Part shown: piece after piece, positions 6,879 through 24,748 of the stretch
How positions within the stretch are numbered: position 1 is the stretch's first letter
How the letters are laid out: each line of letters starts with the position of its first letter
Source: a virus
Strand: one strand, 5' to 3'
Length of the DNA stretch: 24,748 bases
Virus record (IMG/VR): IMGVR_UViG_3300023245_000107
Span: 1 to 24,748 of that record
Made by a program: the position numbers and the translations under genes
The notes under the pieces: model-generated
What the model saw: only the letters and a program-made list of their open reading frames with translations
What the model was told of the DNA's origin: nothing
Database searches by the model: none

Positions 6879-9112
6879 TGGCCCTTAAACCTTTTCTAAT
6901 AGCTCCAATCAATGGGGGTTTAATAAACAATTTAGAGCCCTGGTTATTACCAGAGGACGCCTTCTCTGTATTGAATAACGCTTATGTTTGGAGAGGAAGG
7001 GTTAGGAAGAGATTTGGTACAGCTTTACTAGGGGATACGGATTTACTTTCTAGGCTAAGAATTGACCTAGGAAATACGGATGCATCGGGAAATTTAGCTT
7101 TAACAAATATTCCTGGTATTCAATTAGAAGTGGGAATGATGTTTAGTTGTGGAACTAATATTTTTACTGTTACCGTGGTTCCCACTGTAGGTTTGACTTC
7201 TCCAACTCTTTCTACTACTTCTCCTTCCACTGGAACAGTTGAATTTACTTCTACCCCTCCTAATTTATATAAATTTTCTATTGGTGGTTCAGATGGTACT
7301 ATAGCTAGTACGGCAGTGTATTTCTATCCGGCTACTCCGGTCATGGGACTTAGACAAAGAGAGCTAGGAACTATAAATGTAGAAGAAACAGTGGGTTTCG
7401 ATACACAATTTAGCTACATTAGATCGGGGGGTGGTTGGGAGAGATTAGATACAGCATCCACTGGGATTTGGACAGGAAGCGATTCAGATTTATTTTGGTC
7501 AGTTAATTATCGAGGAGTGAATTTGTATGAGACAGCGTTGTATGTAGTGAATGGTGTGCAAGCTGATGGAATTAGATTTCTTCCTCAAGGATCGACTGCG
7601 TGGACACCTATAAATCCACAAACTACAGTACTGGCAACGTTTAAGTTAAATAGTGGTAAAATAATTATAGGATTTAAAAATAGACTTATAGTGTTAAATA
7701 CTTTGGAGACGGTAGCGGGATTGCCCCGACAATTCAAAAATAGAGCTCGTTGGAGTATAAACGGTGACCCGACGGTTGAGGCCACTTCATGGAGAAGTGA
7801 TATAAGGGGACAAGGAGGATATAACGATGCGACTACCACGGAAGCTATCGTTACTTGTGAGTTCATCAAAGATCACTTAATTGTATATTTCGAAAGATCC
7901 ACCTGGGAATTAGTTTATACGGCCAACAAAGGTCTTCCATTCGTCTGGCAAAAGATTAATAGTGAACTAGGAGCCGAAAGTCGATTCTCGGTTATTGGAT
8001 TTGATAAGGAGGCTTTAGGGGTGGGAAATGTAGGTGTTCATGCTTGCAATGGAACCAATGTAGAAAGAATCGATCAGAAGATTCCCGATGAAGTTTTTAA
8101 AATACATAACGGAAATGATGGGCCAAAGCGAGTCTATGGAATAAGAGATTACTACAACGAACTTGTTTACTGGACTTTTCCGAGTGCTACTCACAACCCC
8201 ACTTATCCTAACCGGGTATTAGTTTATAATTACCAAAATAAATCATGGGCCTTTACTGACGATTCATTTACATGTTTCGGGTACTTTCAAGAAGATTCGG
8301 ATTTAACCTGGGCATCTGTAGGAAGAATATACGGTACTTGGGAGAAATGGAATACTCCATGGGGATCCGCTACTAATCAAAGTCAGTTTGCAAATATATT
8401 AACTGGAAACCAGCAAGGGTTTACACACTTGATAAAGCCGGGTCGATCATCTAATTCCCAATCTCTTTATATCACAGCTATGACTCCGGCTACATCTACT
8501 ATTACATGTCCTAATCACAATTTACAGACAGGGGATTATATCCTTATTGAAGATTCCCAAGGAGTTACTGATCTAAATGGTATTGTTGTAAGGGTTTCTG
8601 GGCCCATTGGAGGTGTTGATAGTTTTCCAATCGATACTTCTTTCACAGGAACATATACAGGAGGAGGTAAAATTACTACCGTTTCTAATATCGATATTAG
8701 AAGTGTACAGTTTAATCCTGGTACTCCAACAGGTCTTCAGTTTGCTATGCCTTACATTGATTTACTATTAGATAAAACAGAAGAAGGTGAGGTTTCAGTT
8801 GATTATTTAATAGATTCTACTATTGGATGGACTATTCAAAGTCAGATCGAAAACCAGGAAGCGGGTAATGGAGAACCAACCGTACTACTAGGGAATAATA
8901 TTCTATTTACTAAACCGGAAACAAATAGTACTTATCAAACTCAACAAGAAAGAATTTGGCATAGATATTATGTTCAAACGGAAGGACGAATGATTCAACT
9001 CAAATTATACATGTCCGACTCACAGATGAGGAATCTATCTATTTCCAATAGCAACTTTCAGCTTAATGGAATAATACTTTACGTCGAGCCTACGGGGAGG
9101 ATAATTGGATAG
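6878..9112 (+). CDS. Tail hub / packaged-DNA stabilisation-like protein with FCCH-like insert
   Basis: 744 residues. The N-terminus (GGLINNLEPWLLPEDAF, then LNNAYVWRGRVRKRFG) and the repeated propeller-like blades in the middle (VTCEFIKDHLIVYFERSTWE, then VGNVGVHACNGTNVERIDQ, then VLVYNYQNKSWAFTDDSF) resemble the P22 gp10-type plug that closes the head after packaging. It is longer than P22 gp10 (about 470 residues) because of two insertions: a beta domain near residues 56-130 and an FCCH-like module near 530-605 (CPNHNLQTGDYILIEDSQG). The C-terminal domain ends IILYVEPTGRIIG. It acts in the tail below the adaptor. Confidence 0.7.
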   Translation: MALKPFLIAPINGGLINNLEPWLLPEDAFSVLNNAYVWRGRVRKRFGTALLGDTDLLSRLRIDLGNTDASGNLALTNIPGIQLEVGMMFSCGTNIFTVTVVPTVGLTSPTLSTTSPSTGTVEFTSTPPNLYKFSIGGSDGTIASTAVYFYPATPVMGLRQRELGTINVEETVGFDTQFSYIRSGGGWERLDTASTGIWTGSDSDLFWSVNYRGVNLYETALYVVNGVQADGIRFLPQGSTAWTPINPQTTVLATFKLNSGKIIIGFKNRLIVLNTLETVAGLPRQFKNRARWSINGDPTVEATSWRSDIRGQGGYNDATTTEAIVTCEFIKDHLIVYFERSTWELVYTANKGLPFVWQKINSELGAESRFSVIGFDKEALGVGNVGVHACNGTNVERIDQKIPDEVFKIHNGNDGPKRVYGIRDYYNELVYWTFPSATHNPTYPNRVLVYNYQNKSWAFTDDSFTCFGYFQEDSDLTWASVGRIYGTWEKWNTPWGSATNQSQFANILTGNQQGFTHLIKPGRSSNSQSLYITAMTPATSTITCPNHNLQTGDYILIEDSQGVTDLNGIVVRVSGPIGGVDSFPIDTSFTGTYTGGGKITTVSNIDIRSVQFNPGTPTGLQFAMPYIDLLLDKTEEGEVSVDYLIDSTIGWTIQSQIENQEAGNGEPTVLLGNNILFTKPETNSTYQTQQERIWHRYYVQTEGRMIQLKLYMSDSQMRNLSISNSNFQLNGIILYVEPTGRIIG

Positions 9113-9636
9113 TGTCTTCTAACTTCGAAGGAAATACAAGCAACTTACTTCCCAATACTTTTTTAATTCCCCAGGATCCAGTTCAAAAAGATTTAATGTT
9201 GAGACGGTATCTAGATCAAATAGCTACTGCGGTTAATGATAAGGACTCTGCTATTTATGATGGTTTAGAAACTATAACAGGACAACAGTTTTATCCAACT
9301 TTTCCTGGCACAGAATCAACCAACTCAGTTTACAGAGAAGTTTATCGAAAAGTAATTGATTGCGGTACGCTTCCTTCATCAGCTTCTTCCACTACTGCGC
9401 ATGGAATAACAACTACACAAGACTTTACTTTTGTTAAGATATATGGAACCTCAACCGATCCTGGCGTGTCAACTATCACTTCTTCTATTCCTCTACCTTA
9501 CATGAATACTACTACCCCTGGAGATTCTGTAGAGTTGTCGATCAATGCTACGGATGTTATCATTACTACTACTACGGCTAACTACGCCGCTTACACTAGA
9601 ACGTTCGTCGTCCTCGAATGGATGACTCAACTTTAG
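9112..9636 (+). CDS. Virion structural protein, 174 aa
   Basis: Starts with GTG at 9112, overlapping the hub stop (TAGTG). The first 55 residues are helical (QDPVQKDLMLRRYLDQIATA), followed by a beta domain with VYREVYRKVIDCGTLP (about 80-95), HGIT, FVKIYGTSTDP, IPLPYMN and a final TRTFVVLEWMTQL. I recognise this RKVxDxGxLP...HGI...IPLPY...LEW pattern as a recurring tail-region protein of environmental phages with no established function. Tight coupling to the hub gene suggests a tail accessory or fibre-anchoring role. Confidence 0.65.
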   Translation: MSSNFEGNTSNLLPNTFLIPQDPVQKDLMLRRYLDQIATAVNDKDSAIYDGLETITGQQFYPTFPGTESTNSVYREVYRKVIDCGTLPSSASSTTAHGITTTQDFTFVKIYGTSTDPGVSTITSSIPLPYMNTTTPGDSVELSINATDVIITTTTANYAAYTRTFVVLEWMTQL

Positions 9637-17753: not shown

Positions 17754-18658
17754 TCGTTTGGGCAAGTAATTCTATAGGATATCGTCTCACTCTTCTTTAG
17801 ATACTTGTCCACGTCTATTCCATCTATTCTCATTTGATCTAAGTTGTAAGAACTTCTAGGTGCACACTTCTTTATCTTAAATCCTGAACAGGTAAAACTG
17901 TTACCATCTGCATACCCCTCTATCTCTTTCTTAAGAACTTTTCTTTTATCACTCCAAACCTTTTCTTGTGCTAGTATTTCCTTATAAGATTGTAAATCCG
18001 CTTCAATCATTTCACTTTCTACTTCTATGTAGTCATCATCTTTACATTCAGGACGAGTCCCACCAACTACTTGAGTCCAGAACTCATCAGCTTTTTTTTG
18101 CATAACCTTTTGGGTATCGCTAAGTCTAATTAGTTCTATTGTAATGCACTCATCATATCTATAATCCCATAGAGCTAGAATAGTTCTTTTAGGCTTACAT
18201 AGCATTATCTGCCATTGAACTTGATCTAGCCAGTACTGAGGAAATACCTGGTGATTACGAGCATTATCTAATACCTTTTCACTCACGGGACACTTAATTT
18301 CTACTAAGGTTTTCGAATCGACGTCGAACCCGTCTAATGAAGCTTTGTAATGAGACTTTTCCTCATCCTCAATACATAGAGGATTTAGAGCTAAGCCTAA
18401 ATTATCATTTAACCATTGTCTAGCTATGTCCTCGTGATCCATTCCATGACGCATAGCAGGATTAATCTTATCTTCTTCTCTAAACCCACACTTCTTCTCC
18501 CATAGTTTCATAGGAGTTGAATAGGGATTAGATCCTGTTAGCACTGAGATCTCGGAAGCGCCAATTCCTGACATGCGCCATTGGGCCCAAGCCTCACTTC
18601 CTTGAGTATGTTCAATTATTTTCATTTGTTTTCCTTGATTATGTTCAATTATTTTCAT
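17750..18658 (-). CDS. YqaJ/lambda-exonuclease-type recombination nuclease
   Basis: 302 residues with the PD-(D/E)XK nuclease layout of the YqaJ family: GSEAWAQWR (20-28) and GASEIS (33-38) at the start, RHGMDHEDIA (70-79), catalytic ASLDGFD with D109, VEIKCP with E120 and K122, and the YWLDQVQWQI helix (142-151). The enzyme is expected to chew 5' ends to give 3' single strands for the ERF annealing protein encoded in the same operon. The start region is tandemly duplicated, so translation may also begin at ATG 18625 with the same ribosome site. Last gene of the early operon. Confidence 0.9.
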   Translation of the reverse strand: MKIIEHNQGKQMKIIEHTQGSEAWAQWRMSGIGASEISVLTGSNPYSTPMKLWEKKCGFREEDKINPAMRHGMDHEDIARQWLNDNLGLALNPLCIEDEEKSHYKASLDGFDVDSKTLVEIKCPVSEKVLDNARNHQVFPQYWLDQVQWQIMLCKPKRTILALWDYRYDECITIELIRLSDTQKVMQKKADEFWTQVVGGTRPECKDDDYIEVESEMIEADLQSYKEILAQEKVWSDKRKVLKKEIEGYADGNSFTCSGFKIKKCAPRSSYNLDQMRIDGIDVDKYLKKSETISYRITCPND

Positions 18659-18670
18659 TTGTTTTCCTTG
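18607..18670 (-). repeat. 31-bp tandem repeat duplicating the exonuclease start site
   Basis: Two identical 31-nt units, 18607-18637 and 18640-18670, with 33-nt period. Each contains AAGGAAAACAA (minus strand) and the first codons MKIIEH. The product therefore starts MKIIEHNQGKQMKIIEHTQG, with two in-frame starts, each with its own ribosome site. Confidence 0.9.
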
Positions 18671-20937: not shown

Positions 20938-21168
20938 TTAATTGTTCTTATTTTTTTCTACTCTAAGGGCGATCCGGCACATCTCTTCTACTGTCTGGAA
21001 AAATGTTTCTTCTAAGTTATCCTGGGGATACATAATTTTTATCGAATTGATGATCATTTGTAACCCTTGTCCCATTAGAAGGGATACTTTTTCCTTTTTC
21101 GTCCATCCATAAGACTCCAGAACTTGTTTCACACTTGCGTTGCAGGCTTTCATTTTTTCTTCAGTCAT
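20938..21168 (-). CDS. Small early-operon protein, 76 aa
   Basis: Helical protein starting MTEEKMKACNASVKQVLESY, with MGQGLQMIINSIKIMYPQDN and TVEEMCRIALRVEKNK. The start is preceded by GGAGG. The first 15 nt equal those of the internal ERF start. Overlaps the upstream gene by 8 nt. Function unknown; expected to act early, before or during DNA replication, as part of the operon. Confidence 0.65.
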   Translation of the reverse strand: MTEEKMKACNASVKQVLESYGWTKKEKVSLLMGQGLQMIINSIKIMYPQDNLEETFFQTVEEMCRIALRVEKNKNN

Positions 21169-21337
21169 CTATCCTCCAAAGGTCAGCAAGTTCTTGTAAA
21201 CATTCTTCTAATAATCCCAGGTCATTCTGATTTAAATAGACTCGGCACTCTTCTACTAGAAGTTGCGTCTTGCATCTCTTTAAAGGATCGACGTCGTCGT
21301 CTTCAAAGACATCGTAACGGTATTCATTTAGACTCAT
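21161..21337 (-). CDS. Small acidic early-operon protein, 58 aa
   Basis: Frame of 59 codons between two accepted genes, start preceded by GGAGAAG (minus strand). The product has an acidic start (VFEDDDVDPLKRC) and KTQLLVEEC at residues 23-31, then LLEECLQELADLWRIDD. The KTxxLVEEC and ADLW elements match the 66-residue product at 21756-21956, so the two are paralogues. Overlaps neighbours by 14 nt (upstream) and 8 nt (downstream). Function unknown. Confidence 0.65.
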   Translation of the reverse strand: MSLNEYRYDVFEDDDVDPLKRCKTQLLVEECRVYLNQNDLGLLEECLQELADLWRIDD

Positions 21338-21527: not shown

Positions 21528-21771
21528 TATTCTTCTCCCTTTCTTCTGAATCTTTAATATTATTCCTAATTATAGAAAGAGAAGGAAGATATCCGTTTTC
21601 ATCGAAATTATTATAACAATTCCAGAAGCACTGTTGGGCGATATTTAGATTCCCGTCCCGTCCTGTTTTAAAAACCTCTTTCAGTAGTTCTCCTATTAGC
21701 TCCACCATCTCTCTTTCGAGGATAAGTTGTTCGCTTAAGATTTTTTTTAGTGGGGTCATTTCAATTTCCAT
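21517..21771 (-). CDS. Small helical early protein, 84 aa
   Basis: Start ATG 21771 is supported by GGAG (21782-21779) 7 nt upstream; a second Met at 21759 overlaps the previous stop (ATGA) and is an alternative. N-terminal helix MTPLKKILSEQLILEREMVE, then IAQQCFWNCYNNFDENGYLP and an acidic/Asn-rich end. A helix-rich adaptor-like protein with no recognisable family. Part of the small-gene array. Confidence 0.6.
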   Translation of the reverse strand: MEIEMTPLKKILSEQLILEREMVELIGELLKEVFKTGRDGNLNIAQQCFWNCYNNFDENGYLPSLSIIRNNIKDSEEREKNNAL

Positions 21772-21956
21772 CTATCTTCTCCGTTTGTTTTTTTGTAGTT
21801 TATACACTGTTCGATCAATTCATCTTTGTCAACGTCCCACAAATCGGCCAGATCATAAATGGCCTCCGTAAGAACCTGGGCCATCCCCAAATTTATGTAC
21901 GTTACACACTCTTCTATAAAGTGTCTGGTCTTTCTCTCTTTATCAGGTAGGCTCAT
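21756..21956 (-). CDS. Small early protein with KTxxFIEEC and LADLW motifs, 66 aa
   Basis: 66 residues starting MSLPDKERKTRHFIEECVTY. KTRHFIEEC (residues 9-17) and YDLADLWDVD align with the 58-residue product at 21161-21337, indicating a duplicated small gene. The end reads NGEDRWKLK. Overlaps the next gene by 16 nt. The preceding ribosome site is a weaker AGGGAAAAAAGAG. Unknown function; duplications of this type are common among phage genes that target host proteins, but that is inference. Confidence 0.65.
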   Translation of the reverse strand: MSLPDKERKTRHFIEECVTYINLGMAQVLTEAIYDLADLWDVDKDELIEQCINYKKTNGEDRWKLK

Positions 21957-22361: not shown

Positions 22362-22553
22362 ATGCTAAATATAAAAGAATTACACACCTACATCAAGAAA
22401 ACTAAGGTTAGACTACTGTGGCTTTCAGATAAAACAGGGTATTCCAGACACCACATTTCTAATGTACTCAATGAAAATATGAACACTTCTAAGTCTTTTC
22501 TTAGGGTCATGAACTACGCCATCGACGAACACAAAAAAACCCCTCAGCAATGA
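22362..22553 (+). CDS. Cro/XRE-like transcriptional regulator, 63 aa
   Basis: A single small helix-turn-helix protein. Residues 18-37 (LLWLSDKTGYSRHHISNVLN) form the helix-turn-helix with Gly at the turn, as in XRE/Cro proteins, followed by helix SKSFLRVMNYAI and a polar end. The size is that of Cro rather than a CI-type repressor. It lies divergent to the early minus operon, the classical place for its operator. The last codons and a little of the following sequence form a minus-strand terminator. No Shine-Dalgarno site precedes the ATG. Confidence 0.75.
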   Translation: MLNIKELHTYIKKTKVRLLWLSDKTGYSRHHISNVLNENMNTSKSFLRVMNYAIDEHKKTPQQ

Positions 22554-22563
22554 AACTGAGAGG
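22533..22563 (-). terminator. Rho-independent terminator (minus strand) ending transcription from 22978
   Basis: Minus-strand stem CCTCTCAG (22563-22556) with CTGAGGGG (22547-22540), one mismatch, loop of 8, followed by seven T (22539-22533). It stops transcription of the 86-residue gene before it enters the early control region. Confidence 0.75.
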
Positions 22564-22620
22564 CTACAAACTAAAAAACAGAAAACATTTGTAAAAATTC
22601 TAACTCTCTATACCTTCGAA

Positions 22621-22662
22621 GGTTCAAAAGGTTCGAAAGAGGAGTTTTGAACCTTTTGGACC
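22621..22662 (+). other. Long RNA hairpin, 18-bp stem with two G-U pairs
   Basis: Left arm GGTTCAAAA then GGTTCGAAA (22621-22638), loop GAGGAG, right arm TTTTGAACC then TTTTGGACC (22645-22662). All 18 positions pair on the plus-strand RNA, two as G-U (22624-22659 and 22635-22648); on the minus strand these become A-C mismatches, favouring a plus-strand RNA. It lies 67 nt after the regulator stop. No T run follows, so it is not an ordinary terminator. At the DNA level it is two direct 9-bp repeats facing two inverted ones. Confidence 0.8.
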
Positions 22663-22717
22663 CTCATCATCTATTAGTTCTTCTGTTTTCCTGATAGTCT
22701 TTCTTTTTTTATAGAAG

Positions 22718-22978
22718 CTAGACAATTACGTCGTCGCCTTCCTCCCTCATAAAGGTCAAAATACACAAATCAGCCCAAACTTCTTTGAAGCTAATGGGAC
22801 ATTTCTCCTTTACGAAACTTGTTCTCAAGATGTAATGAGCCTCCGATAAAAGTTCGCTGATTATCGTCTCAATTCCTGTGGAGCCCTCCGTTCTGTTCAT
22901 ATGAATAAACTCTTTTAAGTGCTTCCTAAAGACTTTACTTAAAGCTAACTTCATCGGTTCTACCTCATCTATTTTCAT
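22718..22978 (-). CDS. Small unidentified protein, 86 aa
   Basis: Begins MKIDEVEPMKLALSKVFRKH, continues with a His/Lys-containing helix, GIETIISELLSEAHYILRTS and FKEVWADLCILTFMREEGDD. Mixed helical protein with no family I can name. GAGGAAG upstream supports the first Met; a second Met at residue 9 is a fallback. It has its own transcription unit, bounded by the terminator at 22533-22563 and the ncRNA terminator at 23043-23077. Confidence 0.6.
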   Translation of the reverse strand: MKIDEVEPMKLALSKVFRKHLKEFIHMNRTEGSTGIETIISELLSEAHYILRTSFVKEKCPISFKEVWADLCILTFMREEGDDVIV

Positions 22979-23042
22979 CTTGTTCTTCCTCTTTTTTAGT
23001 TATTTGAAATTTTATGTTGATATAAACATTATTTAGGCGCAT

Positions 23043-23169
23043 AAAAAAACTCCGTAACTTTAAATAAAACTACGGAGCGAAGCTGGGATGGTTACCCCAC
23101 TTAAAACAATTTATTTAAACAAATTTCCCGTCAGAAGGAAATTACAAACACTACCCCAAGGTAACCCAA
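23043..23169 (-). ncRNA. Predicted structured small RNA of ~127 nt with terminator
   Basis: The minus strand has a promoter-like pair upstream (TTGCAA, 18 nt, TATAAA) predicting a start near 23169, and ends in a terminator: stem CTCCGTA (23050-23056) and TACGGAG (23071-23077) followed by seven T (complement of 23043-23049). Between them are further perfect inverted repeats: GGTTACC (23090-23096) and GGTAACC (23160-23166) enclosing the whole, AATTTCC (23122-23128) with GGAAATT (23137-23143), and TTTAAATAAA (23059-23068) with TTTATTTAAA (23110-23119), which would make a loop-to-linker pseudoknot. No reading frame of note is present. It could also be part of a replication origin. Confidence 0.45.
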
Positions 23170-23175
23170 TCTCAT

Positions 23176-23205
23176 TTTATAAAAAACATCACCATAGGAT
23201 TGCAA
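23176..23205 (-). promoter_or_regulatory. Possible promoter of the minus-strand RNA
   Basis: TTGCAA (23200-23205, a palindrome, so it reads the same on both strands) is 18 nt from TATAAA (23181-23176, minus strand). The -35 abuts the start codon of the replication gene at 23206, so initiation here would interfere with that gene's translation start. Confidence 0.4.
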
Positions 23206-24261
23206 ATGTCAGAGCAGCTTAACATCAATAAAGAATTAGAGTCAAGCCTCCAACTAACACCGGAGATTAAACAGGAGTGGGATACTCATCCATCTCAATA
23301 CTCGGTTACTATTCCCGATGATATCAAAGATGAAGTGGGCATTCTATTAGCCTACCTATATGGACTAATCGATATCCTCTGTTTCAAAAAGGGGTTCTGC
23401 TTTATGAGTGATGAAGCTTTGGCCGTTAAAATGGAAACCTCGGTTAGACAGGTTAAACGCTATATTAAAACCCTTGAAGAGAAAGGCATGATACACCGCA
23501 ATACCTATAACACCCCTCGAGGCCGAAAACGCCACATTATAACCAAATCCCGATACAAAGAGTACTGGGATAAGTTCCTATGTCATCCCAAAGTACCCGA
23601 AAAGATTCGTAAAGACTTCTTGAAAATAGCCTTCGATGCCAAAGGACAAAACGTGCCTAAAACGGAAACGGAAGCAACCCAAGAGCCAAATCTGTCCCTT
23701 GCATATACACAGGACAAATCTGTCCCTTGCTTTATTAAGTTAGACTTACAAGAGAGAGATACACCGACGTCGCCCCCCAAACCCCCCTCTATTCCCAAAC
23801 CCACCCAAAACGACGACGAAAGAACGAAGGTAAAAGAAGAGCTTAGAAAAGCTGGAATAACTGGCGAACGAGCCGAAATAGGGACAAGATACTATTTCAA
23901 TAACATCGAGGATTTTCAAAGTAGGGACAATCCTATCGCTTATCTTATTCATGGTATTCGGAATGGATGGGCTATCGATTCTGATGCTGTTCAACAGAAG
24001 AGCAAGAAAAACGCCGTTAAGAAAGAGGAAGACTTCGTCGATGGCCAGGACCTCTGTACCAAGTTCTACACGGAACATCCGAGTTGTCGAGGACTCAAGT
24101 ATTACCTGGGAGACTATGCTCTTGAGGTTACTAGGGATAATGCAGGGTATAATGTGCCATACAACGATCCTCAAATTAACCATAAACTCACAAAACTAAG
24201 GAGAGAGCATGCAATTTACTATTCCAGGAAAACCCATCACATGGAAGAGGACAGGTCGTAA
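23206..24261 (+). CDS. Phage replication protein with winged-helix domain, 351 aa
   Basis: I start at ATG 23206, with AGGA (23196-23199) upstream; the TTG at 23200 extends the frame but has no better site. Residues about 55-125 form a winged helix-turn-helix: GFCFMSDEALAVKMETSVRQ, then VKRYIKTLEEKGMIHR and RKRHIITKSRYKEYW, as in phage replication initiators of the O/DnaD type. A Pro/Thr-rich linker (about 175-200) and a C-terminal helical domain (NPIAYLIHGIRNGWAID) follow. It would bind the origin and load the helicase; the 22-bp iteron-like repeats downstream are candidates for its sites. It overlaps RusA by 53 nt. Confidence 0.7.
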   Translation: MSEQLNINKELESSLQLTPEIKQEWDTHPSQYSVTIPDDIKDEVGILLAYLYGLIDILCFKKGFCFMSDEALAVKMETSVRQVKRYIKTLEEKGMIHRNTYNTPRGRKRHIITKSRYKEYWDKFLCHPKVPEKIRKDFLKIAFDAKGQNVPKTETEATQEPNLSLAYTQDKSVPCFIKLDLQERDTPTSPPKPPSIPKPTQNDDERTKVKEELRKAGITGERAEIGTRYYFNNIEDFQSRDNPIAYLIHGIRNGWAIDSDAVQQKSKKNAVKKEEDFVDGQDLCTKFYTEHPSCRGLKYYLGDYALEVTRDNAGYNVPYNDPQINHKLTKLRREHAIYYSRKTHHMEEDRS

Positions 24262-24646: not shown

Positions 24647-24748
24647 TGCATATATAATTTATATTGAGGGAAATAACGAACTATCAATAACAGCAGATTT
24701 TAAACAAATAATTTACCGGTATACGTGGCAGGGATTACCGGTATACGT
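24647..24748. repeat. Iteron-like 14-bp direct repeats, 22-bp period, at window end
   Basis: TTACCGGTATACGT occurs at 24713-24726 and again at 24735-24748, exactly 22 bp apart (two helical turns), with GGCAGGGA between them. Each copy holds palindromes ACCGGT and GTATAC. The second copy touches the window edge, so more may follow. The 66 nt between RusA and the first copy is AT-rich, includes a TATAAT (24653-24658) without a clear -35, and codes for nothing I can see. Typical origin or operator arrays look like this. Confidence 0.7.

Follow-up and report, generated by a model that had tools for sequence, protein, structure and literature searches.

A candidate OOP-like antisense transcription unit at a phage replication initiator gene

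Antisense RNAs at the initiator genes of phages and plasmids

The purpose of the lambda OOP RNA has been argued for decades, and roles as a replication primer, as an antisense RNA to cII, or in transcriptional coupling at the origin have been advanced. OOP is a cII antisense RNA working through RNase III, and the activity of pO affects replication by restraining rightward transcription (PMC3985674; PMC5869508). The oop RNA acts on cII mRNA, with the stability of the O-P mRNA reportedly unaffected (PMC3985674), and the RNA itself is said to matter little for lambda replication (PMC3985674; PMC5869508). An ncRNA at the oop position, OOP-BTP1, was reported by transcriptomics in the Salmonella prophage BTP1 (PMC7067206). 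OOP-BTP1 is antisense to the 3' end of cII, in a prophage and at the lambda oop position, whereas the unit described here has no cII overlap.

Plasmids, pT181 and R1 among them, also make antisense RNAs directed at their rep leaders. Another kind of small phage RNA is represented by the immunity RNAs of P4 and P1 (CI RNA, C4), which derive from an operon's leader or regulate a different operon in trans. In plasmid pMV158, RNAII is an antisense RNA on the rep leader (PMC4485353). Such plasmid countertranscripts resemble the present unit in covering the rep leader and ribosome site and in having their own terminator (predicted here). They differ from it in initiator family and replication mode, and the RNA predicted here has no conserved stem-loops beyond its terminator (body z about 0). 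In Bacillus subtilis, the antisense RNA ArrA lies over the dnaA leader (PMC12112137). ArrA shows independently that the leader of an initiator mRNA can be covered by an antisense RNA. Like the unit predicted here, it spans the 5' untranslated region of a replication-initiator mRNA, but it is chromosomal, repressed by DnaA and associated with an unrelated initiator.

Transcription signals in front of rep

The whole stretch of DNA analysed (the window) is a virus record of 24.7 kb. Around the interval under study, positions 23043-23205, the order from left to right is a leftward recombination operon (exonuclease, SSB, Erf), an HTH gene, a small leftward ORF, the interval itself, rep and a RusA resolvase gene. 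The Rep protein matched PHROGs replication initiation and O-like families (best E 2.6e-9) and gave a sub-threshold match to HTH_36; the SD of rep, AGGA at 23196-23199, is weak. Homologues of the HTH gene were identified as HTH ORFs at the same place in contigs L002, L091, L093 and L117. The features on which the comparison depends are the following.

22362-22553, plus strand: gene for a small HTH protein, transcribed divergently from the leftward recombination operon, at the position of lambda cro
22533-22564, minus strand: T1, a further leftward terminator, at the HTH gene's 3' end, which would end a read-through transcript
22718-22978, minus strand: small leftward ORF downstream of T2, with a good SD; the 65-nt gap between the two contains no promoter for it
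23004-23032, plus strand: candidate rep promoter TTGAAA-17-CATTAT, score 8.5, start ~23039
23043-23078, minus strand: intrinsic terminator (T2), a 13-bp hairpin (23078-23049) followed by T7 (23043-23049)
23043-23209, minus strand: predicted antisense RNA of ~167 nt (~127 nt from the weaker promoter), based on promoter and terminator predictions
23050-23056/23071-23077: inverted repeat CTCCGTA, outer part of the terminator hairpin 23078-23049
23059-23068/23110-23119: 10-bp inverted repeat TTTAAATAAA, proposed pseudoknot
23090-23096/23160-23166: inverted repeat GGTTACC/GGTAACC, a long-range pair
23121-23144, minus strand: internal hairpin AATTTCC/GGAAATT (23122-23128/23137-23143) with loop TTCTGACG, by itself not beyond chance
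23176-23205, minus strand: weaker promoter, TTGCAA (23200-23205), spacer 18, TATAAA (23176-23181), predicted start ~23169
23206-24261, plus strand: rep, 351 aa, an O-like/DnaD-like replication initiator (helicase-loader class)
23216-23224, minus strand: -10 hexamer TAAGCT (23216-23221) and extended -10 TGT (23222-23224) of the pO-like antisense promoter, predicted start ~23209
23240-23245, minus strand: -35 hexamer TTGACT of the same promoter, inside rep
23687-23730, plus strand: two 16-bp direct repeats CAAATCTGTCCCTTGC (at 23687 and 23715, spacing 28), candidate origin iterons inside rep

An earlier note on this DNA had read the interval as a highly structured RNA of the minus strand. Its minus-strand stem followed by seven T was confirmed as T2, which, with a folding z of -5.0 on that strand, is the sole element of the interval clearly above chance in folding energy. 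The four perfect inverted repeats of the note were likewise all found at their positions. When 2000 dinucleotide shuffles of the same 163 nt (23043-23205) were examined, P was 0.037 for at least four such repeats, 0.025 for a 10-bp repeat and 0.0165 for the summed length, and the repeat content was equalled by 1.6% of the 163-nt stretches of the window. The description of the interval as having far more structure than a spacer needs was thus too strong, since the repeats are only mildly enriched (P 0.02-0.04) and the folding signal is that of the terminator alone. Between 23079 and 23169 the folding energy was no better than that of shuffles on either strand (minus z -0.2, plus z -0.8), and the longer antisense RNA folded with z -2.8, the terminator contributing most.

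The 10-bp repeat required for a pseudoknot and the outer closing stem GGTTACC/GGTAACC both exist, but near chance level and with no counterpart seen in relatives. The 10-bp repeat, moreover, is composed of A/T only and would compete for the inner half of the terminator stem. No Rfam family reached its gathering score anywhere in the window. GGTTACC was considered as a conserved operator and rejected, the motif occurring at just one further place in the window outside the interval, as was a leader peptide, the longest minus-strand ORF within the RNA having 24 codons and no ribosome site.

Scored with an E. coli sigma-70 model, which may not suit the host of this phage, the best minus-strand promoter near rep was TTGACT-18-TAAGCT (23216-23245), with a score of 9.9, a level met 0.1 times per kb per strand and unmatched by any control gene of the window. 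Only 3 of the 6 positions of its -10 agree with the consensus, and the score depends on the -35 and the extended -10. The predicted start coincides with the rep start codon. The promoter pair noticed earlier is also present, but it is weak (score 6.3, a level met 2.75 times per kb per strand) and abuts the rep ATG instead of overlapping the start codon as had been claimed. The predicted RNA is the complement of the rep leader together with its ribosome site and the start codon, and it fully covers a rep leader beginning at ~23039. With the rep promoter and the antisense promoter placed in this way, the two transcripts would converge, overlapping over ~167 nt.

The same scripts were run on lambda as a positive control. 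They returned pO as TTGAGT-17-CATAAT with a start at 38676, the published oop 5' end being 38675 (PMC5869508). The oop terminator came out at 38626-38599, 59-60 nt away from the start of O, so that pO-oop-tO was recovered within 1 nt. Like lambda, the window has a predicted leftward promoter where its O-type initiator gene starts, a predicted short RNA that stops at an intrinsic terminator lying between this gene and its left neighbour, candidate origin iterons inside the initiator gene, and a cro-like gene and recombination operon to the left. Unlike lambda, it has no cII gene, the unit (23043-23209) overlaps no rightward coding sequence beyond the first rep codon, the left neighbour 22718-22978 is leftward, the RNA would have ~167 nt compared with 77, no sequence similarity was seen, and the virion genes are not lambda-like. 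Because the defining cII overlap and sequence similarity are both absent, the unit of the window is not filed as an OOP RNA.

The same layout in related phages

No close relative of the Rep protein was found in viral_contigs, genome_contigs or phages, and no close relative of the DNA in phages, plasmids, or by exact 20-mer; L008 and L009, species-level relatives of the window, do not carry the rep region. Covariation of the stems could not be assessed because no close relative carries the interval. Two sets of contigs from distantly related phages, in which the neighbourhood is present, were compared. Set one consisted of 12 contigs gathered through RusA, a small conserved protein and the portal protein, in which rep-RusA is rightward and Erf, in nearly all, leftward. 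Set two consisted of 18 contigs gathered afterwards through Erf, none of them present in set one.

A compact leftward terminator within 500 nt upstream of rep was found in all 13 phages when the window was counted with set one. As controls served the other genes on these contigs whose upstream gap measured 80 nt or more, of which 6 of 75 had such a terminator (Fisher 2e-11). The corresponding figures for set two were 15/18 and 4/59 (7e-10), giving 28 of the 31 phages of both sets, window included. Rightward terminators were rare in the same regions (1/13 in set one, 4/18 in set two). The best minus-strand promoter with a start within 25 nt of the start codon had a mean score of 7.4 at rep in set one, against 4.4 at other ORFs of at least 100 aa (P 6e-7, or 2e-6 without the window), and of 7.5 against 5.1 in set two (P 3e-5); all of these P values are indicative, because the phages, being related, count as less than independent observations and ORF calling supplied the start codons. 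In L101, L109, L112, L117, L167, L169, L185, L190 and L191 the predicted antisense start falls within 3 nt of the rep start codon. What sequence statistics show is the predicted terminator and antisense promoter, and that their position at rep is conserved.

The sequences of the relatives differ, L117 having the outer stem CTCCGTA/TACGGAG in common with the window, and their RNA bodies fold differently, that of L117 most strongly (z -4.2). The reading of the four stems as one structured RNA that is conserved was therefore not supported: outside the terminator the hairpins are at chance level, and the relatives differ in both sequence and fold. It is the predicted placement at rep that is conserved, though the sequence is not. 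According to the maps, the antisense RNA of the relatives overlaps almost no upstream coding sequence (~21 nt in L093, ~7 nt in L111), leaving rep as the only constant neighbour, which favours rep or the origin as the putative target throughout the clade. In L002 and L091 the terminator lies 420-490 nt from rep, and the unit would be long or its promoter elsewhere.

Some of the regions in front of rep have peculiarities of their own. L167 (reverse complement, 8816-9593) contains seven successive leftward terminators, some nearly identical, between rep and the small ORF that follows the HTH gene. In L112 (5207-5503), a leftward ORF named by eye as SpoVG-like is located between the HTH gene and rep, ~25 nt past a leftward terminator. 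A noncoding stretch upstream of the rep operon of L002 (2580-2708) has three 43-nt direct repeats, which are absent from the window.

Role of the unit and position of the origin

The interval can be read, with a probability of roughly 0.6, as an OOP-like antisense transcription unit that probably limits rep expression in cis; both the synthesis of an antisense RNA and its action on rep are inferred. The antisense regulator suggested earlier is retained in this form, as a leftward, terminator-ended unit antisense to the rep leader, a layout that recurs in relatives and matches lambda pO-oop-tO. A leftward promoter in the first ~40 bp of rep would start the RNA at ~23209, about the rep start codon, and the intrinsic terminator 23078-23043 would end it as a short, untranslated RNA of ~167 nt. 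By pairing with the rep leader, this RNA could block translation or expose the leader to RNase III, and collision of the two converging polymerases could also lower rep expression in cis; the supply of initiator would in this way be limited as the phage copy number rises. Judged from its recurrence, the unit is probably involved in the control of phage replication and not a product of chance.

The lambda precedents cut both ways for the role of the window unit. One account, unlikely here although for lambda pO it is the current model (PMC3985674), gives the role to leftward transcription near the origin, which would modulate the rightward transcription reaching the origin; the RNA itself would not matter, and the terminator would only end the transcript. 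The position of the unit, a few hundred bp left of the mid-rep iteron-like repeats, agrees with such coupling, as does the free variation of RNA length and sequence among relatives. Sequence alone cannot separate coupling from antisense action, but the fully overlapping rep promoter of the window makes an effect on rep expression also likely. It is improbable that the leftward RNA is instead the 5' leader of ORF 22718-22978, with T2 as a conditional and T1 as the final terminator. The best promoter score in the gap between T2 and this ORF is 3.9, and the SpoVG-like gene of L112 is similarly placed past a terminator, but no family recognises the product of ORF 22718-22978, and in nearly all other relatives the promoter and terminator are present but not followed by a leftward gene; attenuation is thus not the shared function, although T2 could double as an attenuator in the window and L112.

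Terminators 27-53 nt from the rep start, or consecutive leftward terminators, in several relatives (L101, L167) would suit a role in insulation only, by which T2 and its counterparts stop fortuitous antisense transcription from rep and beyond with neither a dedicated promoter nor a regulatory RNA. The enrichment of antisense promoters at the rep start codon in two separate sets, and the absence of such terminators from most other genes of these phages, make this likewise improbable. Very little credence can be given to the proposals of the earlier note that the interval is origin DNA or a P4-type immunity RNA, even though it adjoins the initiator gene and contains inverted repeats. No Rfam family matched. 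The predicted RNA runs antisense to the gene that follows it downstream, an orientation and anatomy unlike those of a same-operon leader RNA. No direct-repeat array was found within 23043-23205; iteron-like direct repeats sit in the middle of rep, as in lambda O, where the ori iterons are annotated, and in most relatives, direct repeats with 24-31 nt spacing occurring inside 7 of the 10 rep genes tested. These repeats place the probable origin of the window inside rep, at 23687-23730, and not in the interval.

More tentatively, the antisense unit at an O-type initiator may be an ancient and general replication-control element of tailed phages, with control of rep or the origin as its primary job, the lambda use against cII being a later add-on and the terminator serving also as a switch for leftward genes in a few members, the window included. 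If the element is ancient, its persistence in the clade beside unrelated left genes, or none, would point to that primary job. The same anatomy without cII overlap in dozens of phages, always at the initiator gene, makes the two roles separable, and the replication hypothesis for an OOP-type unit becomes testable outside lambda. For uncultured phages, a simple search rule is provided by an antisense promoter at the start codon together with a leftward terminator upstream.

Several minor observations were made in the window and in its relative of the same species, L008. L008 joins the right end of the window (24713-24748) through a shared repeat. At positions 23-947 of L008, between RusA and the next gene, there are four different tandem arrays, all with a 22-bp period but built from units of their own: TTACCGGTATACGTGGCAGAGA, TTAGGGCAAAGTGTTAGGGTAC (twice), GATAAGTTACAAGCTTT-type (twice) and GATGGGTCACTAACTTGCTATA. 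They resemble the iterons of four initiator types in one noncoding stretch, gave no convincing plasmid match, and may represent decoy sites or a second origin. The terminase gene of L008 (2264-4666) is interrupted in a conserved stretch by an apparent intein (CFDSKTEILTERGWK ... SGN). In the window, an 11-bp perfect inverted repeat, AAGGTTCAAAA/TTTTGAACCTT (21-nt, 86%), occurs at 22618-22665 between the HTH gene and ORF 22718-22978. At the start of the exonuclease gene (18598-18670), a 33-bp unit is repeated 2.2 times and duplicates the N-terminal residues MKIIEH. The leftward ORFs 21161-21337 and 21756-21956 are paralogues with 42.5% identity over 40 aa, which suggests gene duplication in the leftward operon of the window.
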